Assembly (NCBI GenBank): GCA_017938285.1
Contig: JAGBBW010000051.1
Location: forward strand, 1-39,914
Length of the DNA: 39,914 nucleotides
Direction: 5' to 3'
Origin: Lachnospiraceae bacterium
Lineage (GTDB): Bacteria; Bacillota; Clostridia; Lachnospirales; Lachnospiraceae
This document shows positions 18,595 to 30,906 of the stretch, piece by piece (positions within the stretch are counted from its first letter, which is position 1; the number at the start of each line of letters is the position of its first letter). The notes beneath the pieces are model-generated. The model saw only the letters and a program-made list of their open reading frames with translations, was not told the DNA's origin and ran no database searches. Both the position numbers and the translations under genes were made by a program.

Positions 18595-18774
18595 GCAGGT
18601 TCTCCCTGTACCATATCCGTGTCCGCCTAACTCTTCCTACACCTGTCCGCCCCTGTCGGACGCAGCCATAGAGAACTACCTTTATACGATAGACTTTCAA
18701 TGGCTGTGTTCGCCAAGGGCGGACAGGTGCGTCAGAGATGTCGGACACTTGGATATGGTACAGGGAGAACCTGC
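18595..18774. repeat. 180-nt long hairpin (inverted repeat)
   Basis: A perfect 24-bp pair closes the structure (18595-18618 with 18751-18774). Then come GTGTCCG (18619-18625) with CGGACAC (18742-18748), ACCTGTCCGCCC (18641-18652) with GGGCGGACAGGT (18717-18728), and CAGCCAT (18663-18669) with ATGGCTG (18700-18706). It contains no gene. It lies between the GH4 promoter and the structured repeat copy. A fold-back mobile element (MITE-like) or a stable RNA are both possible; TTATG occurs at both flanks but not symmetrically. Confidence 0.8.
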
Positions 18775-18795
18775 GAGTTATGTTGTGACAAGCTG

Positions 18796-18938
18796 GTTAC
18801 TGTTCACAGAGCACTCAGACACTTGCTGTCGGAGTGCGAAAGAATATGATTCAGGTGTGAGCAGGCTCCTTTTGCGAAGCAAAACTTTAAATGAGCCTGC
18901 GAATCGTTACTGTTTATGAGGTACGAATGAACAGTAAC
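18796..18938 (+). ncRNA. Structured repeat element, copy 1 (candidate structured RNA)
   Basis: The outer stem is GTTACTGTTCA (18796-18806) with TGAACAGTAAC (18928-18938). The second stem is GCACTC (18811-18816) with GAGTGC (18832-18837), and its loop holds CACTTGCTG. The third stem is GCAGGCTC (18861-18868) with GAGCCTGC (18893-18900), topped by TTTTGC-GAA-GCAAAA. Loop CACTTG (18820-18825) can pair with CAGGTG (18852-18857) as a pseudoknot. The second copy at 30761-30894 keeps all stems with different bases. Sits upstream of the esterase promoter in the same orientation. Confidence 0.65.
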
Positions 18939-18976
18939 ACAAGCTGACGAAAAAAGTTACTGTTTATTTGAAGCAG

Positions 18977-19005
18977 TAGACTTTTGAAAATAATAGAGGT
19001 ATAAT
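18977..19005 (+). promoter_or_regulatory. Promoter of the esterase gene
   Basis: TAGACT (18977-18982), 17-bp spacer, TATAAT (19000-19005), about 53 nt before the start codon at 19059. The interval 18939-18976 contains a third GTTACTGTT copy (18956-18964) but no gene. Confidence 0.6.
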
Positions 19006-19058
19006 CACATACTGGAAACAAAACAACAATATCAAATATTTACAACTACAGGTGCACC

Positions 19059-19976
19059 ATGGGAATACAAATCAGAGAAGCAAAAAGTGAAGAAATGAAA
19101 AAGAACATCCGCATCGTCCAACAGATGACAAAGAGAATGGGCTTTGATGAGAATATGGATAAAGTCAACTGGTCCTTTGTACGGTTGATTTCTAATTTTG
19201 GTTATCAATTTATGCCCAAAGAAAAGGGTGTAACGTATACCAAAGTAAAGCTGGGAAAAACAAAAGCACTGGTTTCCGAATACGGACAGGCAGACGATAC
19301 GAATCTTATTCTGTACATTCATGGCGGAGGCTTTGTTTCTGGAAGCGCCGCCTCCTCAAAGGGTTACAGCTCCATGCTGGCAAAATATTCCGGCTATAAA
19401 GTAATTGCCGTTGATTATGCCCTGGCACCGGAACATGCTTTTCCGAAAGGATTTGAGGACTGTTATCATGCCTTTTGTAAAATTATACGCCAATACCCAA
19501 AGGCTAAAATCACTTTGGCCGGAGAGAGTGCAGGTGCCAATTTGTGTCTTGCCCTTGCATTAAAAGCAAAGAGCACAAAGAAAATTTCCTGTATTTTGGT
19601 CCATAGTCCCATTATTGATTTTACCGGCAGTCTGGACAGAAGCGAACACGAAATAGATGATTTTACCGTAAAAGAAGGGTGTCTGAAACCACTGAATGAC
19701 ATTTATGTGAAAAATCACAAGGCAGGTCACCCTTACATTTCTCCATTGTTTGGTGATTACAATGACTTTCCACCAACGTTTATTACTTGCGACCACAATG
19801 AAACACTTTATGCCGATGCAAAAGCATTGTACAAAAAATGTGAACAGGCGAATGTAGAAGCTGAATTAATAGAAGTAAAAGGAACATTCCATGCATTTGC
19901 CACGATTGGAACCGGAACACCCGAAACAGAGCAGATTTTAAAAGAAACCATAGCATTTATAAAGAAACACGCATAA
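19059..19976 (+). CDS. Alpha/beta hydrolase, hormone-sensitive-lipase-like esterase
   Basis: A 305-residue protein with the oxyanion-hole motif HGGGF (residues 88-92) and nucleophile GESAGAN near 149-155. An acidic residue lies in the TFITCDHNETLY region (near 240) and the catalytic His in FHAF near 275. This is the HSL/bacterial carboxylesterase (family IV) pattern, cytoplasmic with no signal peptide. Substrates of the family are short acyl or acetyl esters; a role in deacetylating imported sugars is conceivable because the sugar locus lies divergently upstream, but that is inference. The ribosome site is weak (AGGTG). Confidence 0.88.
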   Translation: MGIQIREAKSEEMKKNIRIVQQMTKRMGFDENMDKVNWSFVRLISNFGYQFMPKEKGVTYTKVKLGKTKALVSEYGQADDTNLILYIHGGGFVSGSAASSKGYSSMLAKYSGYKVIAVDYALAPEHAFPKGFEDCYHAFCKIIRQYPKAKITLAGESAGANLCLALALKAKSTKKISCILVHSPIIDFTGSLDRSEHEIDDFTVKEGCLKPLNDIYVKNHKAGHPYISPLFGDYNDFPPTFITCDHNETLYADAKALYKKCEQANVEAELIEVKGTFHAFATIGTGTPETEQILKETIAFIKKHA

Positions 19977-20034
19977 ATAAAGCATTGCAAAGAATCTTTG
20001 CGCCCCATTTTACCCCATGTAAAACACGGATTGC

Positions 20035-20062
20035 TTGTCAAATATGGATTCCCGTCTAAAAT
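20035..20062 (+). promoter_or_regulatory. Promoter of the XRE/MATE pair
   Basis: TTGTCA (20035-20040), 16-bp spacer, TAAAAT (20057-20062), followed by AAGGAGG and the start at 20086. Confidence 0.55.
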
Positions 20063-20085
20063 AAAACCGTAAGGAGGAAACAGTC

Positions 20086-20574
20086 ATGCAGTTAGGTCAG
20101 ACCATCGTAAACATAAGAAAAGAGCACCAGATGACCCAGGAACAGTTTGCTGCAAAATTTAATGTAACCCGACAAACAGTTTCTAACTGGGAGAATGAAA
20201 AGAGTTATCCTGATTTATTGACCCTGGTAAAAATCAGTGATGAATTCAATTGTTCTCTCGACACCATGTTAAAGGAGAATCCAGAAATGACAGAAAAAAT
20301 GAATAACAATATGAAATACGGGGAATCCCATGGCTACATTGGAGGAATATGCTCCATCTTTCTTTTTATTTTTGTGACAGAAATGCTGATTATGAATATG
20401 GGCAGCTGGTACATACTGCTCGGCTATTTTTTAATTATTTTTGCAAACGCAGACGGAATAAAGCTTGTACTGAAGGACTTAAAGAAAGAAACGCTCAAAA
20501 CAAAGCTGCAGTTTGCCGGTATTCTGCTGCTGACCGTAGTGATTTCCAGCGGAGTACTTTACTATATTAAGTAA
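20086..20574 (+). CDS. XRE family regulator with two membrane helices
   Basis: A 162-residue protein. Residues 5-60 form a Cro/CI-type helix-turn-helix (MTQEQFAAKFNVTRQTVSNW, then DLLTLVKISDEFNCSLD). Two or three hydrophobic helices follow in the C-terminal half (SIFLFIFVTEMLIMNMG, WYILLGYFLIIFA and FAGILLLTVVISSGVLYYI), so it is a membrane-tethered regulator. The MATE exporter starts 46 nt downstream, suggesting control of that gene. A strong AAGGAGG is present. Confidence 0.88.
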   Translation: MQLGQTIVNIRKEHQMTQEQFAAKFNVTRQTVSNWENEKSYPDLLTLVKISDEFNCSLDTMLKENPEMTEKMNNNMKYGESHGYIGGICSIFLFIFVTEMLIMNMGSWYILLGYFLIIFANADGIKLVLKDLKKETLKTKLQFAGILLLTVVISSGVLYYIK

Positions 20575-20620
20575 TCCTACGCACCCATTTATTATACCTG
20601 TAACTAAAAGGAAGTGACCT

Positions 20621-21967
20621 ATGAAAGACATGACCAAGGGCTCTGCCCTGAACCACCTCTGTGCTTACGCCCTGCCATTGCTCCTCGGCAACTGGTTCCA
20701 GATGGGCTACAACGCCATCGACTCCATTATTGCCGGGCGTTTCATCGGCAAAGACGCTCTCGCTGCGGTAGGCATTGCCTCTCCGCTGATGAACCTGACG
20801 ATTTTATCCATCTCCGGCCTCTGCATCGGTGCCGGGGTTCTTTTGAGTGAGTTTTTTGGTGCCAAAGACTGGAACTCCCTGCGGACCCAGTTCTCCACCA
20901 CCCTGCTCTCCGGTGGTCTCATAAGTATTCTGGTTGCTGCCCTTGGTATCCTGTTTACTACTCCAATCCTTAAGCTGCTCTCTGTACCGGAAGAAATTCT
21001 TCCCACAACTGCGCTTTACGTGGGAATTACCTTCCTTGGCACACCGTTCACTTTCTTTTATAATGCCCTGTCTGCCGCCCTGAAAAGCGTGGGAGACTCT
21101 AAAACACCATTAAAATTTCTGATGTTCGCTTCGATTTTAAACGGTATTCTGGACATCATTTTTATTGGTGGGCTTGGCTTTGGCATTATCTGCAGTGCCA
21201 CCACCACCGTCATTGCGGAGGCTTTTTCTGCCCTGCTTGCCGCTCTGTACCTCATCCGGCATATCCCGGAACTTTGTCCTCAGAAAGGAGAATGGACGAT
21301 TAACCGGGAATATTTGAAAAAGACTTTCCAGTTTGGCGGTGTTTCTGCCCTGCAGCAGTCGGTCCAGCCCATTGGCAAAATTCTGATTCAGAGCCAGGTC
21401 AACGCCCTTGGTGTCAATGTTATCGCTGCCTTCAACGCTGTGTCCCGCATTGATGCCTTCGCCCTTGTTCCGGGACAGAGCATCGGTCAGGCCGTGACCA
21501 CCTACATTGCCCAGAACCGCGGAGCAGACAAAAAAGAACGTATTGCCGGAGGATACCGCACCGGAGTCTGCCTGGAAATTGCCTACTGGCTGTTCTTCGC
21601 CACCATTACCTTTTTCTTCAAACGAAATATTATGTCCTGGTTTGTCACCGGAGAAGATTCTGCCGCCATCATTGATATCGGCGTGGAATACCTGTCCCTT
21701 ATGGTAATTTTCTACCTGTGGCCTGCCATGACCAACTGCGTCCAGGGCTTTTTCCGTGGCATGGGAAAATTAAAAATCACCCTGTTCGGCACCTTTATCC
21801 AGACCAGCATCCGGGTCGTTATGACCTATACCCTCGCTCCGTCCATGGGAATCCGTGGAATTGCCCTTGCCTGTGCCGCCGGCTGGACCATGATGTTATT
21901 ATGGGAAATTCCGTTGTGTATCCGGGAAATTTATCTTATACGGAAACAACACAGCCAAACCCTTTAA
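20621..21967 (+). CDS. MATE family efflux transporter
   Basis: A 448-residue protein with twelve predicted membrane helices in two homologous halves. The characteristic MATE segments are WFQMGYNAIDSIIAGRFIG near residue 26 and FNAVSRIDAFALVPGQSIGQ near 274. It exports cationic drugs or metabolites by Na+ or H+ exchange. The start follows AAGGAAGTG. Its stop lies 4 nt from the stop of the convergent gene at 21972, with no terminator between. Confidence 0.93.
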   Translation: MKDMTKGSALNHLCAYALPLLLGNWFQMGYNAIDSIIAGRFIGKDALAAVGIASPLMNLTILSISGLCIGAGVLLSEFFGAKDWNSLRTQFSTTLLSGGLISILVAALGILFTTPILKLLSVPEEILPTTALYVGITFLGTPFTFFYNALSAALKSVGDSKTPLKFLMFASILNGILDIIFIGGLGFGIICSATTTVIAEAFSALLAALYLIRHIPELCPQKGEWTINREYLKKTFQFGGVSALQQSVQPIGKILIQSQVNALGVNVIAAFNAVSRIDAFALVPGQSIGQAVTTYIAQNRGADKKERIAGGYRTGVCLEIAYWLFFATITFFFKRNIMSWFVTGEDSAAIIDIGVEYLSLMVIFYLWPAMTNCVQGFFRGMGKLKITLFGTFIQTSIRVVMTYTLAPSMGIRGIALACAAGWTMMLLWEIPLCIREIYLIRKQHSQTL

Positions 21968-21971
21968 GCCC

Positions 21972-22655
21972 TTATTTTTTCACATAGCCTGCAACAAACC
22001 CGGTGGAGCGTTCTCCCTTGTGACTTTCGAACCAAGGGTCAATTCCCCACGCTTTGGAAATTGCCATAACAGAATCCTCGTTTGCAAACTCCACGGTTTC
22101 CCAGTCATCCTCCTCTGACGTAAGATAGGAACCAAACCCAAGCTCCCGCTCCTCCGGTGTCATCTCTCCTTCGCTTTCCACCTCGCCGGACTCACCAAGG
22201 AAATAATATCTGCGGACCGTCTCCCCCTTCTTAAACTTTGCCCAGGTATGTAAATCCACAATCCGGTACGTGGCAAAAAACAACATTTCATCAAACAACC
22301 CTGCCGTTTCCCGCAACCGTTCCACATCATCTGCCAGTTCTTCCATATCACTGACAATCACATAACCATCCATAACCGGACTGACAAAAACCTTTCCAAA
22401 CCGTCTGACCTCCAGACCGGATTCCCAGTTTGCCACCTGCACATTCCCAAGCTGCAGCTTTTCCATCACTTCCTCCGGTGTACTGTTTTTCACCGCCAGC
22501 CAGGAGGTTTTGTATCCAAGAAATGCCGGTTCGTCCGGTTCTGTCGTAATGGTTAGTCCTGGCATCCGCAGTACCTTTGGGACTTCTGCCTTTTGCTTTT
22601 CAGATGTAGTTTCCCCAGTCCTGCTGCGCTTCTTAAAAAAATCAAATAATCCCAT
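21972..22655 (-). CDS. Protein of unknown function, MGLFDFF start
   Basis: The start at 22655 is chosen because GGAGG lies 7 nt upstream; a longer frame from 22703 would overlap the upstream gene. The 227-residue soluble protein begins MGLFDFFKKRSRTGE, a start seen in many small uncharacterised Firmicute proteins, and continues as an acidic alpha/beta domain. There is no signal peptide or membrane helix. It has no motif I can assign. It follows the serine hydrolase by 25 nt and is probably co-transcribed with it. Confidence 0.75.
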   Translation of the reverse strand: MGLFDFFKKRSRTGETTSEKQKAEVPKVLRMPGLTITTEPDEPAFLGYKTSWLAVKNSTPEEVMEKLQLGNVQVANWESGLEVRRFGKVFVSPVMDGYVIVSDMEELADDVERLRETAGLFDEMLFFATYRIVDLHTWAKFKKGETVRRYYFLGESGEVESEGEMTPEERELGFGSYLTSEEDDWETVEFANEDSVMAISKAWGIDPWFESHKGERSTGFVAGYVKK

Positions 22656-22680
22656 CACTGCCTCCTGTAAATTCACCATG

Positions 22681-23856
22681 CTATAAACTTTCCAGCGCCC
22701 CATACGTCACTGCCCGGACCTTCCGGGTCAGTTCCCAGAAGCCAGTTCCGCACCGCTGGATAAAAAACAGCAGCACCATGTTCTCCTCCGGGTTCACTGT
22801 CACATAGTTCCCGGTCCAGCCGTCCCAGCCGAACTCACCAATACTTCCATTGGTCCCTGCCAGGCCTTTGTCCTCCAGACACCGCATCAAGCAGCCATAC
22901 CCATACCCCTGCACACTGTCCCAGTTATAGTTCGTCCGTTGTTCTTCCGTCAGATGGTTCTGTGCCATAAATTCCACCGTTTTTTCACCCAGAATCCGTA
23001 CATTTCCAAGCTTTCCTTTGTTCAAAAGCATTTGCGCAAACTTTGCATAATCGTCTATTGTGGAAACCATTCCGGCACCACCGGATTCAAACGCCACATC
23101 TGACTTATAATATTCCCCCAGGTGGCTGCGGTTTAATGGGTGCAGCCCCTTCGCTGCCTCATCCCACTCATACGCCGTAGCAAAACGGTCCCATTTTTCC
23201 TCCGGCACAAAAAATCCGGTGTCTGTCATGCCAAGAGGCGCAAAAATTTCCTCCTGTAAAAACTGCCCGAACTTCTTTCCGGAAACCGCCTCCACCACAG
23301 CCCCCAGGATATCCGCTGAAAATCCGTACATCCACTGCTCTCCCGGCTGGAATACAAGGGGAAGCTTTGCAATTTCCTGCATCCATTCCATGGTATCCAC
23401 AATCTCTCCTGCCTCTCTCCGGGCTATCAGCTCCCGGAATACTTTGTCCATCCGGCGTCCGGTCTCCAGCTCTTCACAAGGGTAAGGAATGCCCGTAGTC
23501 ATGTTCAGGCAGTCCCAGATAGTAAAATCACGGTTTGCCGGAACCTCTCCTGCCTCTGTCCAGACCGTCATGTTCCGGAAACATGGAAGATAGTTACACA
23601 CCGCGTCCCTGATATCCAGCTCACCCCGCTCAAACAGAATCATTACCGCTGCTGCCGTCACCGGCTTTGACATGGAATACATGTGAAAAATGGTGTCCCG
23701 CCGCATTGGTATATGACGTTCTTTGTCAGATTCCCCGTACACTTTTCTGTATTTTTCCTCGCCGTCTTTGAGAACAAGAAGACTGGCACCGGCAATTTCC
23801 CCGGCAGCTATGTAATGGTTGACTAAATTATCAATCGTGGATGAATAGTGGAACAT
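22681..23856 (-). CDS. Serine hydrolase, beta-lactamase class C-like family
   Basis: The ATG at 23856 follows AGGAGG; an in-frame ATG at 23892 lacks a ribosome site. The 391-residue protein has the SxxK nucleophile motif SMSK (61-64) followed by PVTAAAVMILFERGELD, and the tyrosine motif region WMYGFSADILGAVVEAVSG. No signal peptide is visible, so it is a cytoplasmic EstB-like esterase or peptidase rather than a secreted penicillin-hydrolysing enzyme. The substrate is unknown. Confidence 0.88.
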   Translation of the reverse strand: MFHYSSTIDNLVNHYIAAGEIAGASLLVLKDGEEKYRKVYGESDKERHIPMRRDTIFHMYSMSKPVTAAAVMILFERGELDIRDAVCNYLPCFRNMTVWTEAGEVPANRDFTIWDCLNMTTGIPYPCEELETGRRMDKVFRELIARREAGEIVDTMEWMQEIAKLPLVFQPGEQWMYGFSADILGAVVEAVSGKKFGQFLQEEIFAPLGMTDTGFFVPEEKWDRFATAYEWDEAAKGLHPLNRSHLGEYYKSDVAFESGGAGMVSTIDDYAKFAQMLLNKGKLGNVRILGEKTVEFMAQNHLTEEQRTNYNWDSVQGYGYGCLMRCLEDKGLAGTNGSIGEFGWDGWTGNYVTVNPEENMVLLFFIQRCGTGFWELTRKVRAVTYGALESL

Positions 23857-23956
23857 AAGCACCTCCTGTTTTTTCAGTAACTTTAGAATCATATCCTTTT
23901 ATCTGTAGGATACCTTTTGTGAATGGGTTCGTCAAGCGGGATTTTGCTTTGCAAAA

Positions 23957-24019
23957 GGCTTTTGGAAACACCGTATCCGAAAGCATACTTTTCCGATACA
24001 GGCATCATTTCCAAAAGCC
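23957..24019 (-). terminator. Long imperfect hairpin after the chemotaxis receptor gene
   Basis: GGCTTTTGGAAA (23957-23968) pairs with TTTCCAAAAGCC (24008-24019). An inner arm GTATCCGAAA (23973-23982) pairs nine of ten with TTTCCGATAC. In the minus direction it is followed by TTTTGC, a short T-run. Next to it is ATTTTGC-TTT-GCAAAA (23941-23956), the same palindrome type as in the structured repeats. Confidence 0.55.
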
Positions 24020-24043
24020 CCAATTCAGCAATCTGTTCTTTTT

Positions 24044-25786
24044 TTAGTACAATTTAAATTTATTTACCTGCTCCGCCAGCTCAGCCGCCCGTGCCGCCAG
24101 TTCCTCGCTGGTTGCCAGGCTTTCTTCTGCGGAAGCCGCATTTTCCTGGGTAATCGCCGATACCTGGCCAATTCCCTCTTCTACCTGCTTTAATAATGCC
24201 GCCTGCTCCTCTGCAGTCTCCTTGGAGCCTTTTGCAGTACCTGCAAAAACCGTCATTTCTTTAATAATTTCATCAAACGCCACCGCTGTGGAAGCTGTAA
24301 TTTCGTTACCCTTTTCAATCTCTGCCACTGTCTTTTCAATCAGTTCCTTTGTGCTGACTGCTGCCTGGGCACTGTCCATTGCCAGCTTTCCAATCTGGTC
24401 AGCTACCACTGCAAAGCCACGGCCTGCTTCCCCGGCCCTTGCCGCCTCAATAGAAGCATTCAGTGACAACAGACTGGTCTGGTCCGCAATCTCCTCAATA
24501 GCGGTAATAATATTGGAAATTTCTGCAGAAATGTCTTTGATACGCTGCATTTCCTCCTGTAATTCCTGTACCTGCTCCCGCTTAACTTCTGCCCCACGGA
24601 CAGAAGCCATAACACCTTCATAGCCCTGCTCTGCCTGTTTTGCATTTTCCATTGCCATATTGCTGATGGTATTGATGGTGGCGGTCAGTTCTTCCACGGA
24701 ACCTGCCTGCTGCTCTGTGCTGTACGCCAGTTCATTGGCAGCTGTTGCTACTTCATCCGCACCCTTGTCTACCTGGCCGGAAACATCATTAATATTCGTC
24801 AGCGTTTTATTAAATTCCTTCAATATGTACATAAAAGATTCTTTAATGGTAGAGAAATCCCCAAGGAAATCTGTGATTTCCCCAAAATTCTTTGTCAGAT
24901 CTCCTTTTGCCATATCAGACAGAATACCGGAAATTTCGGTTATGTAGCCATTCAGTGTCTGCATGGTAGTCCTCATGGCGTCAGCCAGTATTCCAAGTTC
25001 ATCCTGGGATTCGTGTTTTATTCCCGTGTATGCCTCCATTTCACCCTGCTGCATTGCCGCTGCTGCCTGGGTAATCTCTCCCAGAGGCTCACAGATCATC
25101 TTTGTTACCTTCTTTGTAATGCGGATTGCCATAAACGTTACCAGTGCCAGCTCCGCAATACCCACAATAACAAGAAGGAAGGAAATCTGGGAAGCATGCA
25201 CACAGTATTCCCTGCTGACAGCCATAATCTCATCTGCCAGAACTTCCACTTCCTCATAGATTTCTTCCACGGTAGCACTGACTGTTTCCGAATAATAATA
25301 ACCGGCAGATTCTATCCTGCCCTTGGAAAGCATATCTACAATAATATCAATATCTTCCCGCATACCAGTCATTCTGGTGTGGATGGCTTCCAGCTTCTCT
25401 TTACTTTCCTCCGAAATTAACGACTCCATCAGTATACCATACGCCTCTTCCAGACTTGCCCAGTCTGCTTCAATGGCAGCAACCGTATCCCCCGCAATTT
25501 TGTCCACATCCGCCAGAATCAGACTGCCCTCCGCCCTGGCATAGTTGATTTCCTTCGGAATATCATTCAGGGAATACCGAATTTCTCCAATATAAAAGGC
25601 GTTTCTTACCGGTCCCTGGTACATTCTCTCCACATATCGTTCAATTCCTATCATACAGCCAAGCAGAATAGCCATAATAATAGCACTGCACAAAATTATC
25701 AGTCCATGTGATATCGTCAGTTTTTTCTTAATCGGTGCATTTTTTAACATTTCCCCAAAACTGGTTTTGCTTTTCTTTTTCCCCAT
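24044..25786 (-). CDS. Methyl-accepting chemotaxis protein
   Basis: The start at 25786 is preferred (AAGG upstream); an in-frame ATG at 25831 has no ribosome site. The 580-residue protein has a first membrane helix ([21 protein letters not shown]), an outer four-helix-bundle sensor of about 150 residues and a second helix ([19 protein letters not shown]). A HAMP domain and a long coiled-coil signalling domain follow, with the conserved tip [20 protein letters not shown]. It lacks a C-terminal methyltransferase-docking pentapeptide. No other chemotaxis gene is nearby, so it is an orphan receptor. Confidence 0.93.
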
Positions 25787-25843
25787 AAATACCTTCGCCT
25801 TTCCTGAATATAACTTGTTCACTCCATACAACTAATCATATTC

Positions 25844-25897
25844 ATTCTACAATATCTTCCTTTCAGGCGTCAAGTACTTTTTGTAAGCACTTACAAA
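25844..25897 (-). promoter_or_regulatory. Chemotaxis-receptor promoter with upstream palindrome
   Basis: On the minus strand, TTGACG (25873-25868), 18-bp spacer, TAGAAT (25849-25844). Just upstream is the perfect palindrome TTTGTAAG-CA-CTTACAAA (25880-25897), which resembles a cre or LacI-family operator but has TG in place of the central CG. Confidence 0.6.
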
Positions 25898-25898
25898 C

Positions 25899-26666
25899 TT
25901 ATTTTTCCAGCAAATCCCCATCTACCAGTTCCAGACCGTATTCCCTGCAGAGTGCCTGTCCCCGGGCAATACCCTCTGCATTTAACAGCTGCGCCGGAGA
26001 ATGGGCATCAATACCAATCACCGCTTTATTTCCCGTTTCCTTCGCCAGTTCCAGAAACCGCTTTGCCGGATACTGTCTGCCTTCGGATAACCCAAGAATA
26101 TTGATTTCCACCGGAATATCCGCTTCCTTCAGAGCTGCACACAGCCGCCGCATCTCCTCCCGGTATAGCTGCCCGTCTCCGGTAAAATTCACCAGGTCCG
26201 GATGTGCCACATACAGATACCGTCCGGATCGTATCCCATCAATCACCGTATCCACATAGCCCTTCAGCACCTCCGGCTCCGGGTGTTTCCATCCGGTATA
26301 AACCGAATCATATTCCGTTCCAAGGAAATGCTGTCCCATAATCATATAATCCAGCGGATATCCCTTCAACAGCTCATCCTGCGCCGGAAGCAGTTCCGGA
26401 CAGTGCTCCGTTTCAAACCCAATATAAATCTTAATATCCCTCTCGTACTCTTTTTTCAGGGATTCCAGACTGTAAAAATACCCATCCACCTCCGAAGGTG
26501 CCAGCCGCATGTTGGACACATAATCCTTCCTTGGAAATATCCATGGACAATGGTCGGAAAAACCGAGAATTTTCAGTCCTGCCTGAATGGCTGCTTCCAC
26601 ATACTCCTTATCCTCCCCGGAAGCATGTCCGCATCGCTTTGTATGTGTATGATAATTTGCTAACAT
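25899..26666 (-). CDS. PHP-domain phosphatase, histidinol-phosphatase-like
   Basis: A 255-residue protein. PHP metal-binding motifs are visible in order: HTHT (residues 6-9), GFSDHCP (36-42), GFETEH, MGQHFLG, HPDLVNF and GIDAHSP. This is the HisK/HisJ-like branch. No histidine-biosynthesis genes are adjacent, so the phosphoester substrate is uncertain. It is 20 nt downstream of the DUF512 gene and probably in the same transcript. Confidence 0.88.
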   Translation of the reverse strand: MLANYHTHTKRCGHASGEDKEYVEAAIQAGLKILGFSDHCPWIFPRKDYVSNMRLAPSEVDGYFYSLESLKKEYERDIKIYIGFETEHCPELLPAQDELLKGYPLDYMIMGQHFLGTEYDSVYTGWKHPEPEVLKGYVDTVIDGIRSGRYLYVAHPDLVNFTGDGQLYREEMRRLCAALKEADIPVEINILGLSEGRQYPAKRFLELAKETGNKAVIGIDAHSPAQLLNAEGIARGQALCREYGLELVDGDLLEK

Positions 26667-26686
26667 AACTGCCTCTCTTTCTTCTC

Positions 26687-28108
26687 TTAAAACTCCTGTT
26701 TCCGGTCATACGCCTGGATGTACACAAAATTCCCATTATCCCGGCTGTCATGATACTGCGGATTCAGCACTGCCTCAATAAAATCACTGCCTTTGGCTCC
26801 TGCTGCCACAACCTTAAGTCCCAGTGCTGCTTCCACTTCGTCCGTTGTCACATCATCCAGAAATACTTTTTCTCCGGTACGAAGCATATTGCCGGGAATC
26901 ATAACCGCATCTCCCAGATTCACACCGGACTCCTGCTTTTCTTTTAACTGTTTCACTAAATCCTGTCCGGTAACCAGTCCGGACACCGTAATGGTTTCTC
27001 CAAAAAACTCATTGCGAATCCAGAATACATTGACGGTAAGTCCCGGAAAATGTTCCATCAGCCGTTGTGCAAAATTCTTCAGCATTGGATACGCCAGCTT
27101 TCCGGTGGCAATTGTCACGGTCCGGTGAAGGTTTTCCTTTAACTGCACATATATTTCCCTGTTTACCAGCTGTTCCAGTGCCTCATCAAACTCCGTTTTC
27201 AACAGCCGCATCATGCCGACACCGTTTTCCAGCTGGATATAACCGTCATACCGGTCCTCCTCCGGAAACTCCCGCTCTGCCGTGATGTACCACTCGTCAC
27301 TGGCGTGGATAAAATGCAGCCCAAACTCCTCATAGCATTTCTGCTGGTAACTCTCAATCAAATCAATAATTTCCCCTGCTTCTTCCTTCGTAAACAGTTC
27401 CAGCGGATACAGACCCTCCCGGTATTTTGTAATGCCTGCCGGAACCACGGAAACACTGCGCATATACGGCAGATATGCCATCAAATCTTCAATACTGCGC
27501 TTTAATTCCGCCCCATCATTCACACCCTTGCAGCACACAATCTGACCGTTCATTTCAATCTGGTTTTCATACAATCTCTGAATGTACTTTAACTTCTCCC
27601 CGGCAAACCGGTTCGACAGCATTTTGCAGCGCAGCTCCGGATTGGTGGTCTGCACGGAAATATTGATTGGCGCCAGATGAAGCCGGATAATGCGGTCGAT
27701 ATCCTTATCCTTCATGTTGGTCAGCGTAATATAATTGCCCTGCATGAAGGAAAGTCTGGAATCATCATCCTTAAAATACAGCGTCTCCCGCATACCCGGC
27801 GGCATCTGGTCAATAAAGCAGAAAATACACTTATTTGTACAGGAGCGGTACTCACTCATCAGTTCATTTTCAAACTGGATGCCGAGGTCGTCATCATACT
27901 CCTTGTCCACCTCCAGTAACCACTCTTCCCCATCCGGCTTGCGCACCAGCACCTCCAGATATTCGTCCTTTATCATACAACGGTAATCAAAGACATCCTC
28001 TATTTCCTGATTGTTAATGGCAAGCAGGACATCCCCTGCCTCTACTTCCAGTTCCTCGGCAATGGAACCGGGTTCTACAAATTTTATGATATGTTCCGAA
28101 TGTTTCAT
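26687..28108 (-). CDS. DUF512 radical-SAM protein with N-terminal PDZ-like domain
   Basis: A 473-residue protein. The N-terminus is PDZ-like (EPGSIAEELEVEAGDVLLAI, 12-31). CTNKCIFC places cysteines at 90, 94 and 97, giving the CxxxCxxC cluster of radical-SAM enzymes. A DUF512 domain follows. The family is common in Firmicutes and cyanobacteria and its reaction is not settled. The start shares one base with the stop of the upstream ATPase gene and the GGAG ribosome site lies within that gene, so the two are co-translated. Confidence 0.92.
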   Translation of the reverse strand: MKHSEHIIKFVEPGSIAEELEVEAGDVLLAINNQEIEDVFDYRCMIKDEYLEVLVRKPDGEEWLLEVDKEYDDDLGIQFENELMSEYRSCTNKCIFCFIDQMPPGMRETLYFKDDDSRLSFMQGNYITLTNMKDKDIDRIIRLHLAPINISVQTTNPELRCKMLSNRFAGEKLKYIQRLYENQIEMNGQIVCCKGVNDGAELKRSIEDLMAYLPYMRSVSVVPAGITKYREGLYPLELFTKEEAGEIIDLIESYQQKCYEEFGLHFIHASDEWYITAEREFPEEDRYDGYIQLENGVGMMRLLKTEFDEALEQLVNREIYVQLKENLHRTVTIATGKLAYPMLKNFAQRLMEHFPGLTVNVFWIRNEFFGETITVSGLVTGQDLVKQLKEKQESGVNLGDAVMIPGNMLRTGEKVFLDDVTTDEVEAALGLKVVAAGAKGSDFIEAVLNPQYHDSRDNGNFVYIQAYDRKQEF

Positions 28109-29298
28109 CAGGACTCTCCTTCCATTAAAAAGTCATAAATATTTATCTGATTAATTCCATCCTCGCCCAGTGGAATCTCGTCCATGGACAAAATAAATTT
28201 AGGATAATTATCTGTAATTTTTTTCAAAGGACGAATTTCCCGCTCAAACGTTGCCGGGTCCAGTACGGTGGCTGCCACCTGGTAATACGCCTTTTCGTCC
28301 CCTTTCTGCACCATAAAGTTTACTTCTTCTGTTTCCACCTTTCCAACGGATATCCGGTATCCTCTGCGCAGCAGTTCCAGATATACAATGTTTTCCAGCA
28401 CATGTCCAAAATCCCGCAGTTTCGTTCCAAGCAGATGGGTACGGAATCCCATATCCACAAGATAATATTTGCCTAACGACTGCAGAAATTGTTTTCCTTT
28501 TACATCATACCGCTCCGCTTCATATAACACAAACGCTTCCTGAAGAGTTTTCAGGTAGTTATCTACCGTTACGGATGTAGTTTTTCTCCCCATGCTTGTA
28601 AGCGTATCTGCGATTTTTTTGGAAGAAACCATATTTCCTATATTATCCGCCAGAAAACACAGAATCGATTCCAAAAGCTTCACATCCGCAATTTTTTTTC
28701 TGTCAACAATATCCTTCAGCAAAACCGTATGAAAAATACCTGCAATATACTCCTGATAAGCCTCTTCCTCCTCAATCCGGCTGGCATACGGGAAACCGCC
28801 CCTCAGAAAATAATTCTGGAACGCCTGTTTTTTTTCCAGACCTGTAGCCTCCACATACTCCCGGAACGAAAAAGGCAGCATACTGATTTCCACATACCGT
28901 CCGGATAATAACGTAGCAAGTTCCCCGGAAAGTATATAGGCATTGGAGCCTGTCATATAAATATCCACATTTTCCTTCAAATACAGACTGTCCACTGCCT
29001 TTTGAAACTCCGGCACCAGCTGTATTTCATCCAGAAAAATATAATATCTCTGTTCTTTTGTCAGACGCTCTGTAATATATTCATACAGACGGTGATACTC
29101 ACGCAGCGCCTCATTCTGTAAGTCATCCAAAAGGAGAAAAATACACTGCTCTTCTTTGATTCCCTGTCCCAGCAGATATTCTTTATACTGTTTTAATAAC
29201 GTGGATTTTCCACATCGGCGCACTCCGGTAACAACCTTGATTACCTGCTTATCTTTCCACCGTTTCAATTTTTCCATGTAATTATCTCTTTGAATCAT
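28108..29298 (-). CDS. AAA-family ATPase with DUF4143 domain (second copy)
   Basis: A 396-residue protein with Walker A GVRRCGKS (25-32), Walker B YYIFLDEIQ near 87-95 and the GSNAYILSGELATLLSGR segment. The DUF4143 C-terminus ends in a nuclease-like part (VETEEVNFMVQKGDEKAYYQV). It has the same architecture as 509-1729 but is only moderately similar, so it is an old paralogue rather than a recent duplicate. GGAG precedes the start. Confidence 0.9.
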   Translation of the reverse strand: MIQRDNYMEKLKRWKDKQVIKVVTGVRRCGKSTLLKQYKEYLLGQGIKEEQCIFLLLDDLQNEALREYHRLYEYITERLTKEQRYYIFLDEIQLVPEFQKAVDSLYLKENVDIYMTGSNAYILSGELATLLSGRYVEISMLPFSFREYVEATGLEKKQAFQNYFLRGGFPYASRIEEEEAYQEYIAGIFHTVLLKDIVDRKKIADVKLLESILCFLADNIGNMVSSKKIADTLTSMGRKTTSVTVDNYLKTLQEAFVLYEAERYDVKGKQFLQSLGKYYLVDMGFRTHLLGTKLRDFGHVLENIVYLELLRRGYRISVGKVETEEVNFMVQKGDEKAYYQVAATVLDPATFEREIRPLKKITDNYPKFILSMDEIPLGEDGINQINIYDFLMEGES

Positions 29299-29327
29299 CC
29301 GCTTTCTCCTTCCTTCTCATTTCTTAT

Positions 29328-29394
29328 ACTATACTTTAAATACAAAAAATATTCAAGAGTTTTTAAAGTCAACTTTAAAAACTCTTGAATATTT
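29328..29394 (-). promoter_or_regulatory. 23-bp palindrome overlapping the promoter of the second DUF4143 ATPase
   Basis: Perfect 23-nt arms (29347-29369 and 29372-29394) are separated by two bases. On the minus strand the arm is followed by a TTTTTTG stretch, so it can act as an AT-rich terminator for the anti-sigma operon. The same sequence carries TTGAAT (29356-29351), a 17-bp spacer and TATAGT (29333-29328), a promoter for the ATPase gene. Terminator, operator or both are possible. Confidence 0.7.
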
Positions 29395-29420
29395 CATTTT
29401 TTTATATCAAACTTCATTTT

Positions 29421-30224
29421 CTATACTCTTTTTCTTTTATCTGCCACCAGAAACGCCACCATTCCCACGCCTCCAATACAAAGCGTCCGCACGGTAGCCT
29501 CCCACAGGGTCTGAACCGCCTGTGTCAGTTCCGACATATACCCCATCTGGACACAGTAGGACATCATCAGAAAAATGCCTGTCAGACATACGTTTACGAC
29601 CACACTGGCTGTTCTGCCCTGCTTTACGGTCCGTACCATCTGCAACAGATACACAACAAAGCACAGAACCGCTGCTGCCACCATCTGCTTATACAAAAAA
29701 GGTCCGGTTACTTCCCGTGGCACCTGAAACACCGGTTTCCCTTTCAATATGCAGGAAAAACCATAAAACATCATGCCAGCGCCATACCCTGCTGCCAGCA
29801 CTGCGCCTGCCAGGGACATTATATCCCATTTATCCAGCACCCGCATCTTGGTCTGGTTCCGTCCTGCCAGCCAGCTTGCCGCCATACAGACCGGCAGTGC
29901 CACATAAAGTGCCAGCAGCGGTATCTGCATATTATTGTCAGAGCTGAACACAAACAGCATCAATACGGTCATCACCAGACACAGCCCAAAGCCTGCCATA
30001 CTGCGATGCAGATTCTGCCGCACCACCTTCTTTGCCGCATCCAGCTGCTCCACCTCCAGCCGCTTTGCCGAAATCTCCGTACCCTGAAGCAGCTTCAGCG
30101 TCTTTTTGCACTCCTCACAGTCCGTCACATGCTCCTCTATCCACAGTCTGCTCGCCTCCGAGCAGATTTTATCCACATACGACGGCATTAAATCTTTCAC
30201 AATATCACATTCCTGTTTCTTCAT
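29421..30224 (-). CDS. Anti-sigma factor with N-terminal zinc finger (zf-HC2) and membrane helices
   Basis: The ATG at 30224 is preferred over an in-frame GTG at 30233, because AAGGA sits 11 nt upstream of the ATG. The 267-residue protein begins with the anti-sigma zinc motif (HVTDCEEC, H-x3-C-x2-C) and then has about six hydrophobic helices. It overlaps the sigma gene by 20 nt, the usual sigma/anti-sigma coupling. It is expected to hold the sigma factor at the membrane until a signal arrives. Confidence 0.88.
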   Translation of the reverse strand: MKKQECDIVKDLMPSYVDKICSEASRLWIEEHVTDCEECKKTLKLLQGTEISAKRLEVEQLDAAKKVVRQNLHRSMAGFGLCLVMTVLMLFVFSSDNNMQIPLLALYVALPVCMAASWLAGRNQTKMRVLDKWDIMSLAGAVLAAGYGAGMMFYGFSCILKGKPVFQVPREVTGPFLYKQMVAAAVLCFVVYLLQMVRTVKQGRTASVVVNVCLTGIFLMMSYCVQMGYMSELTQAVQTLWEATVRTLCIGGVGMVAFLVADKRKRV

Positions 30225-30693
30225 CCCTGCCACATCCTTTCAGTAAAAGTTCCTTGGCCCGGTAAAAATTCACCCGCGCCCAGTTTTCGCTCTTTCCCAT
30301 AATTTCCCCGATTTCCCGGTAGGACAAATCACTCATGACCCGGAGGTACATCACTTCCTTCATCTGTTCCGGCAGCCGGTGCAGCTCCTTTAGGCAGTCA
30401 ATCAGCTCCACCCTCGTCATCGCTGCCTGCTCCGTATTTTCCTTTGCCGGCAGTGTTTCGTCCGGCTCCGCCGGAATCTGCTTTCCTGCCTTTGCAAAAT
30501 ACTGATACAGCAGATGCTTTGCTATCTGACACAACCAGGTGGAGATTTTGCAGCTGTTATCAAACCGTTCCAGCGACTCGTAAGCCCGCAGAAAGGTTTC
30601 CTGGGTCAGGTCCTTGGTCAGCTCCTCGTCCTTACACATGGAATAAAGGTAATGGGACACAATTTTCACATTTTCCCGGTATAATGTTTCCAT
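30205..30693 (-). CDS. ECF sigma factor (sigma-70 family)
   Basis: A 162-residue protein. Region 2 contains DLTQETFLRAYESLERFD and STWLCQIAKHLLYQYF. Region 4 contains LPEQMKEVMYLRVMSDLSYR and EIGEIMGKSENWARVNFYRA, a helix-turn-helix for the -35 box. GGAGG precedes the start. The anti-sigma gene follows with an overlap. Two upstream elements (see 30732-30933) look like ECF promoters, suggesting autoregulation. Confidence 0.92.
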   Translation of the reverse strand: METLYRENVKIVSHYLYSMCKDEELTKDLTQETFLRAYESLERFDNSCKISTWLCQIAKHLLYQYFAKAGKQIPAEPDETLPAKENTEQAAMTRVELIDCLKELHRLPEQMKEVMYLRVMSDLSYREIGEIMGKSENWARVNFYRAKELLLKGCGRDEETGM

Positions 30694-30731
30694 CTGTGCC
30701 TCCTTCTTCGCTTCTTTCGTTATAACGTAAC

Positions 30732-30758
30732 TTTCCGGTACCTTACTATTTCGTTACA
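30732..30758 (-). promoter_or_regulatory. Candidate ECF promoter P1, proximal to the sigma gene
   Basis: Minus strand: TGTAAC (30758-30753), 15-bp spacer, CGGAAA (30737-30732), about 40 nt before the sigma start. The same pair with the same spacing occurs at 30907-30933. Confidence 0.6.
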
Positions 30759-30760
30759 CC

Positions 30761-30894
30761 GTAACTATTCAGTACCTTCATAGTTATGTTTCGCAAATCC
30801 ATGAAAATTTGCTTCGCAAATGGGATTTGCTCACACCTGAATCACTGTCATACGACCTCATCAGCAAGTGATTCGGTCTATGCTGAACAATTAC
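30761..30894 (-). ncRNA. Structured repeat element, copy 2 (candidate structured RNA)
   Basis: Read on the minus strand. The outer stem is GTAATTGTTCAG (30894-30883) with CTGAATAGTTAC (30772-30761), including two G-T wobbles. The second stem is GACC (30878-30875) with GGTC (30857-30854) and its loop again contains CACTTGCTG. The third stem is GCAAATCC (30830-30823) with GGATTTGC (30800-30793) around TTTGCGAAGCAAA. The blocks CACTTGCTG, TGATTCAGGTGTGAGCA, TTTGCGAAGCAAA, TTGCGAA and AGGTAC are shared with copy 1. It lies between promoters P2 and P1 of the sigma operon, same orientation. Confidence 0.65.
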
Positions 30895-30906
30895 GTTACA
30901 TCTATA

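Follow-up and report, generated by a model that had tools for sequence, protein, structure and literature searches.

Two repeats, 143 and 134 nucleotides (nt) long, lie on opposite strands of a 39,914-nt stretch of DNA from a Lachnospiraceae bacterium (contig JAGBBW010000051.1 of assembly GCA_017938285.1; the whole stretch is called the window). Both are copies of a short non-autonomous transposon, a Miniature Inverted-repeat Transposable Element (MITE), which recurs across many gut Lachnospiraceae. The MITE identity follows from the terminal inverted repeats, the 8-base-pair (bp) target-site duplications, the occurrence of solo hairpins and the sharing of ends with other short elements. That the repeats are a MITE and that they carry an evolutionarily constrained inner fold, taken together, we regard as nearly certain. 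MITEs as a kind are already known; the structured family described here appears to be new.

An initial annotation, made from the letters of the window, had reported the two repeats with a set of shared blocks, stems that differ in letters yet stay paired, and a gene in the same orientation downstream of each copy; it proposed selection on a folded single-strand shape. Both repeats were found at those positions and on those strands with every block quoted, the paired stem changes hold and extend to 13 copies of the source genome, and each copy does have such a gene downstream (alpha/beta hydrolase for copy 1, sigma-70 for copy 2). Selection on the shape is borne out by many further copies, by significant covariation and by the lack of an Rfam match. 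The outer stem does stay paired, but the annotation missed its nature as a terminal inverted repeat, the 8-bp duplications and the solo hairpins with the same ends.

Ends, target sites and spread of the element

The element measures 131 to 156 nt in 72 of 73 copies (the remaining one is cut at 126), has a G+C content of 0.35 to 0.54, and is too short to encode a transposase. Its terminal inverted repeats are of the GTTACTGTTCA / GTAACTGTTCAG kind. Between them, and always in the same orientation relative to the two ends, lie a hairpin P2 with the loop CAYTTRCTG, a linker, a hairpin P3 and a 3' hairpin P4. Exact 8-bp target-site duplications flank 34 of the 73 copies, and 48 of the 73 have 7 or 8 matching positions of 8. 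The 34 exact duplications among the 72 copies with both flanks compare with 3 in 5112 mismatched flank pairs used as a control, and flanks offset by one or two bases gave at most 2 exact matches in 72.

A search of the source genome (3.23 Mb in 154 contigs; G000 in our labels) with copy 1 gave 34 matches, several of full length and others of the 5' end only or the 3' end only. The most conserved block, with up to 3 mismatches, occurs in 21 places in this genome, whereas its reversed control has 2. Copy 2 belongs to a second subtype, of which the same genome has five further full copies, and a third subtype is present at G000:C21. In a subtype with GTTACAG..CTGTAAC ends, P4 and its partner strand change jointly. 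Solo hairpins of 27-33 bp that correspond to P4 alone were found at G000:C12:31074 (L061), G000:C17:12226 (L063), G000:C82:66-99 (L018) and other sites; L061 has an exact 8-bp target duplication (TCTTTTCC) and others match in 6-7 of 8 positions.

The ends are also found beyond the element itself. The end motif GTAACTRTTCAG, with up to 1 mismatch, occurs 109 times in the source genome against 22 for its reversed control. The motif GTWACTRTTCA was counted in ten relatives and is far above the reversed control in the richest four (G276, 378 v 16; G250, 278 v 17; G222, 218 v 11; G067, 138 v 8), followed by G225 (81 v 4), G140 (34 v 6), G118 (27 v 5), G003 (17 v 7) and G232 (14 v 8); in G104 it is below control (9 v 18). 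Short families of 45, 91, 144 and 185 bp with the same ends are present in the source genome. An GTAACTATTCAG-type end is common to G000:C31:4966-5150 (L066, 185 bp), G000:C84:5800-5890 (L087, 91 bp) and G000:C73:14289-14432 (L080, 144 bp); judged by eye, these families do not share the inner fold. Three copies of the element in direct tandem occur at G250:C4 (L342:1371-1772) with an 8-bp spacer between them (AAAAGATA-like), as if the repeating unit were the element plus its target duplication.

If the repeats were simply a cis-regulatory or stand-alone RNA family with no link to transposition, whose copies merely look repeated, the conserved fold and the closeness of many copies to genes would be accounted for. 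The exact 8-bp duplications contradict this reading. The 34 matches in the source genome, the solo and truncated derivatives, the other short elements with the same ends, and the unrelated genes that adjoin the two window copies speak against it as well, and it is very improbable.

Covariance models recovered the element widely within the family. Model R1, built from the 13 source-genome copies, found it in 69 of 397 same-family genomes (59 of 334 genera), and a core model, R3, in 76 of 396 (67 of 317 Lachnospiraceae genera sampled). At the order level, model R2 matched 36 of 392 genomes; 35 belong to the same family, and G623 to a different one. These searches scored 8 to 10 candidates in each genome, and the copy numbers they give are therefore minima; deeper searches of three genomes yielded 16, 13 and 3 matches at E up to 0.01. 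Scanning named genomes for a pattern gave at least 118 stretches. The 80 listed among these bear Lachnospiraceae names, names of genera that we take to be members of the family (Fusicatenibacter, Blautia, Roseburia, Butyrivibrio, Catenibacillus, Lachnoclostridium and several Candidatus genera), or just Eubacteriales, Clostridia, Clostridiales or bacterium. The gut commensal Fusicatenibacter saccharivorans is among them, with copies in contigs NZ_JADNOP010000001, 3 and 4. One exact core pattern had 0 matches in a viral contig collection, and copy 2 had no blastn match in a plasmid collection. A phage collection searched with copy 1 gave seven unannotated faecal contigs (MT839507.1:191-334 and six other records), which are either phage or stray chromosome.

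No transposase with the element's ends was found in 2.13 Mb scanned, much of it taken around copies and so not a random sample. GTWWC ends with exact 8-bp duplications gave 114 placements in this DNA, counted without merging overlapping loci. All are shorter than 200 bp, and 92 measure 100-149 bp, which leaves no room for a transposase gene in any of them. Candidates for a full-length parent with 7-of-8 duplications proved to be the end of a short element paired with a stray or neighbouring end. A second family with similar ends (185 bp), searched in 31 genomes, matched 3 and revealed no parent.

Known transposon families were considered as parents. Insertion sequences of the IS66 family have GTAA ends and 8-bp duplications like those of the MITE. 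DDE_Tnp_IS66 was found in 6 of 10 element-bearing genomes, but not in G222, G225, G373 and G140, which have many copies each, and the matches fetched, which were fragments or lay near contig ends, had no paired ends around them; these matches lend IS66 no support as the parent. IS256 is likewise unsupported: Transposase_mut is present in 4 of 6 genomes, with no match in the source genome or G222, and no shared ends were seen. REP/RAYT repeats make no target duplication and depend on a Y1 transposase, and membership in that group is ruled out by the 8-bp duplications. A 1.3-kb parent candidate in G232 is really an insertion inside a small element. This insertion, which we take to be IS4-like from the look of its open reading frames (ORFs), has CAATGTCATTTAGTTAA ends and lies inside a small element of this kind at G232:C1 (L307:2600-4200). 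Near L307 position 5219 on the same contig, an CAATGTCATTTAGTTAA-type end abuts the right end of a core copy; the IS4-like element may target these hairpins.

Covariation of the inner fold

In the 13 source-genome copies, 93.5% of 480 cells are paired over 40 pairs, and 17 of the 40 pairs are changed on both sides, a number reached in 1 of 500 shuffles. The covariation score is 0.436 against a shuffled mean of 0.191, and when the partners were slid by 1-3 columns just 27-39% of cells were paired. One measure is contrary: further pair types number 35 against a shuffled mean of 38.3.

For a tree-aware test, 73 copies were aligned to R1 and reduced to 67. The test was our own R-scape-like script and not R-scape itself; it uses a G-test with product correction and a FastTree tree, and its null consists of 200 alignments in which the parsimony substitutions were re-placed on the tree. 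Fifteen column pairs reached E<0.05, all of them Watson-Crick pairs of P2, P3 or P4. Because this alignment had been fitted to the structure, the test was repeated on a MAFFT alignment of 57 core sequences with P4 left out. The top 16 pairs, all at E<0.05, are pairs of P2 or P3, and the first non-helix pair appears at E 0.16. A GAA/TTC linker helix and a CGT/GTG pairing that emerged from a column scan had no covariation in the MAFFT alignment. Since many single copies of the source genome are truncated or decayed, we infer that selection acts on the lineages that spread.

Joint changes in stems may also arise as a by-product of mutation, without selection on function, when template switching during replication in hairpins corrects quasi-palindromes. 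Such correction is known for DNA quasi-palindromes and could explain the joint changes of P4 and its partner strand in the GTTACAG..CTGTAAC subtype. We consider it improbable as the source of the compensatory changes: unpaired loops and linker are more conserved than stems (column conservation 0.79 unpaired v 0.63 paired), G-U exceeds A-C in well-paired positions (see below), and models with these stems match 59 of 334 and 67 of 317 genera.

The initial annotation had added a possible pseudoknot between the P2 loop and the linker. The pairing letters are indeed present in both window copies, and 68 of 71 copies allow some loop-linker helix of 4-7 bp, but those columns do not covary in the MAFFT alignment. 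Complementarity between P2 loop and linker over 71 copies is 11.82 against 10.34 with shuffled linkers; with the linker of another copy it is 11.61, and 198 of 2000 permutations were at least as high. With a copy's own linker hardly better than another's, the pseudoknot was rejected as a supported part of the fold; the pairing is possible.

The annotation had not recognised the element and had named a match to a known Rfam family or to an insertion-sequence end as a result that would refute it. Rfam 15 gave zero matches at gathering level over the window, and a known RNA family was rejected. The outer stem is indeed a transposon terminus, a partial refutation, while the inner fold passes the covariation test. 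At E up to 5, four element-bearing loci drew six weak Rfam matches: one on the element (GA-cis, 22.4 bits, below the cut-off of 34.7) and five on a neighbouring hairpin at one locus.

Exchanged ends, strand asymmetry and the possible action of the fold

The core of P2, linker and P3 is found between different ends. In the main group it lies between GTWACTGTTCA-type ends with 8-bp duplications, and in one genus (G625, G716 and G207) between unrelated TATG..TTCTTGAAC-type ends bounded by TA. The two contigs of G625 hold 13 matching copies, 11 of which start like TATGACTTCTTGAAC and end like TTCAAGAATGTA or TTCAAAAATGTA (L371 and L391 differ); TA is present at the left edge in 10 of the 11 and at the right edge in 10 of the 11. 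No 8-bp duplication was seen by eye at these edges. L373 has an 8-of-8 match at the narrower model edges, which we take not for a duplication but for the beginning of an adjacent element of this type. In the G716 copy (L375) TA-type ends flank a linker that is almost the same as in the main group, and the ends of the G207 copy (L438) are similar to those of G625. Model R2, built without copies from these three genomes, matched the best G625 copy at E 8.2e-14 and the copy at G207:C19 at 3.9e-15. At 21 of 32 well-conserved unpaired columns of the main group, seven rows of G625 plus G716 have the same majority base. Genomes with the same genus code (G522, G553, G652 and G701) have the usual GTTAC-like ends. 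A TA-type solo hairpin stands directly after a core copy in the right flank of L389 (G625:C1), mirroring the solo P4 hairpins of the main type.

Parts of the core are exchanged as well. In another genus, represented by G690 (L363-L370, G690:C2), P2 is swapped for another hairpin while P3, P4 and the ends are kept, and the 8-bp duplications of these copies are exact in 5 of 8 and 7/8 in the other 3. One G646 copy has P2 exchanged as in G690. The element is modular, given the core between changed ends and the replaced P2. We raise only tentatively the further idea that the core is an RNA module able to spread without being tied to a single transposon, swapping transposases as a parasite or symbiont and kept for the action of its RNA.

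Strand asymmetry bears on a possible RNA role of the fold. Among helix pairs with more than 80% Watson-Crick pairing, G-U cells number 45 and A-C cells 17 (naive p 0.0005, with relatedness ignored). Orientation was counted in 168 non-redundant copies, 10 of which overlap an ORF; the median distance is 68 nt to the upstream gene and 48 nt to the downstream gene. In gaps between genes on the same strand the element points with the genes in 69 cases v 25. Upstream of a gene, 109 copies are sense and 66 antisense, and downstream of a gene 93 are sense and 46 antisense. A preference for the G-rich strand is absent from divergent gaps (35; 15 v 20) and convergent gaps (17; 8 v 9), as is one relative to the remaining genes of the locus (15 v 17 and 7 v 7). 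This lack of orientation preference speaks against an effect of replication. Taking together the asymmetry between strands, the bias in orientation, the conservation of the loops and the fact that the core survives when its ends change, we put the chance that the fold works as RNA at about even.

A number of observations weigh against this reading. When all pairs of the model are counted, A-C cells (62) outnumber G-U (48); 44 of the 62 fall in pair 18-80, which is Watson-Crick in just 28 of 72 copies and is judged to be wrongly assigned. The alignment used for both counts was fitted to a plus-strand model, and the G-U excess fits single-stranded DNA equally well. Genes in the orientation counts were called by a crude, simple ORF rule. 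A second set of 76 copies gave 28 v 17 in same-strand gaps (p 0.14, non-significant), with the other two counts (51 to 40 and 34 to 22) in the same direction and likewise non-significant. When same-strand flanking genes and the remainder of the locus disagree, the element goes with the flanking genes in 7 of 15 copies, and when those genes and base skew disagree, in 7 of 13, so that local transcription is not separable from regional effects. The best promoter-like site before the hydrolase gene (18977-19005) is downstream of copy 1, which thus need not be co-transcribed with that gene; a second site (30975-30947) is upstream of copy 2, which could sit in the leader of the sigma gene (both sites are consensus matches only). 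A transposase with matching ends, finally, was not found in the 2.13 Mb scanned.

The fold may instead serve as a DNA structure, with hairpins in extruded or single-stranded DNA being used for transposase recognition or excision and RNA being uninvolved. The right end lies within P4, whose own pairing shows stronger covariation (185-241, E 0.004) than the pairing of the two ends with each other (3-241, E ~4). The duplications beside the solo P4 hairpins make this hairpin at least part of what moves. The same solo hairpins, however, have apparently moved without P2 and P3, and the P2-P3 core is kept between different ends. The orientation bias, confined to same-strand gaps, also argues against a DNA role, although the discordant copies left genes and region unseparated. 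On balance we find a DNA role rather unlikely.

Our commitment is to a module acting at the level of the transcript, which would protect or process the host mRNA that carries the element. A transposase encoded elsewhere would move the element, and neighbouring promoters would transcribe the fold, acting as RNA on the plus strand of the element, into host mRNAs. Once there, the fold would protect either the element or the transcript, acting for instance as a processing, protein-binding or insulating module, and would so allow copies that retain it to persist and spread.

Known repeats and the two copies in the window

The closest known kind is the BOX repeats of Streptococcus pneumoniae. According to the account of BOX (PMC3049150), these too are short, dispersed repeats of modular build: they end in terminal inverted repeats, have target duplications, are predicted to fold as RNA, occur as lone modules and tend to follow the direction of coding, 60.8% lying on the leading strand in keeping with the coding bias. 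BOX differs in host family and in its boxA, boxB and boxC modules, with ends paired to one another (PMC3049150), whereas the element here has a P2-linker-P3 core followed by a 3' hairpin that includes the right end; the comparison is one of architecture. Beyond BOX, the MITE described here has tree-aware covariation and the same core between different ends. With MITEs in general it shares small size, the lack of a transposase gene, terminal inverted repeats, direct repeats and stable stem-loop transcripts (PMC10969869); it differs in that no parent insertion sequence was found. That review considers riboswitch-like or terminator-like roles conceivable and speaks of thermodynamically stable stem-loops, and the strings 'covari', 'clostridi' and 'lachno' are absent from its main text (PMC10969869). 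A survey of stem-loop repeats (40 genomes, 92 families) describes families that are also often intergenic with a common secondary structure (PMC2267715), a likeness at the level of description. No description of this family was listed in the literature library searched, a result that does not extend to papers beyond that library or to differently worded accounts.

The usual view of short transposon relics in bacteria is one of passive DNA, made up of ends and filler, and preserving a shape inside is not expected of such small jumping elements. Here a fold is kept through compensatory change and apparently also through changed ends, which raises the question of whether small bacterial transposons bring with them RNAs that serve either their own propagation or the host. 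Annotators gain a family to mask or model; intergenic copies could pass for riboswitches in Lachnospiraceae.

Each window copy (Table 1) occupies a divergent gap: copy 1 is flanked by a family-4 glycosidase gene and the alpha/beta hydrolase gene (19059-19976), copy 2 by a Uma2 gene and the sigma-70 gene (30693-30205). The folds have z -5.1 (copy 1) and z -4.35 (copy 2), and for each 0 of 200 dinucleotide-preserving shuffles folded equally well.

Table 1. Positions in the window of the two element copies and their parts
Feature	Position	Strand	Basis
Copy 1, complete 143-nt element	18796..18938	+	own-genome search, model alignment, target duplication
Copy 1, left target-site duplication ACAAGCTG	18788..18795	+	exact 8-bp repeat of 18939-18946
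Copy 1, left terminal inverted repeat GTTACTGTTCA	18796..18806	+	
Copy 1, hairpin P2 with loop CACTTGCTG	18811..18837	+	helix pairs
Copy 1, conserved linker GAAAGAATATGATTCAGGTGTGA, taken as unpaired	18838..18860	+	
Copy 1, two-part hairpin P3, GCAGGCTC..TTTTGC-GAA-GCAAAA..GAGCCTGC	18861..18900	+	helix pairs
Copy 1, hairpin P4, 3' strand being the right terminal inverted repeat	18906..18938	+	
Copy 1, right target-site duplication ACAAGCTG	18939..18946	+	exact match to left
Copy 2, complete 134-nt element	30761..30894	-	model alignment, target duplication
Copy 2, 5' target-site duplication GATGTAAC	30895..30902	-	7/8 match to 30753-30760
Copy 2, left terminal inverted repeat GTAATTGTTCAG	30883..30894	-	
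Copy 2, hairpin P2	30854..30878	-	
Copy 2, hairpin P3	30793..30830	-	
Copy 2, hairpin P4 / right terminal inverted repeat	30761..30787	-	
Copy 2, 3' target-site duplication GGTGTAAC	30753..30760	-	

A further inverted repeat, 180 bp long (18595-18774) and with arms of 24 bases (GCAGGTTCTCCCTGTACCATATCC and its complement), lies just before copy 1 on its upstream side and could likewise be a small element. A hairpin at about 29344-29396, between two genes, draws sub-threshold matches to microRNA models and is perhaps a terminator or another small element.

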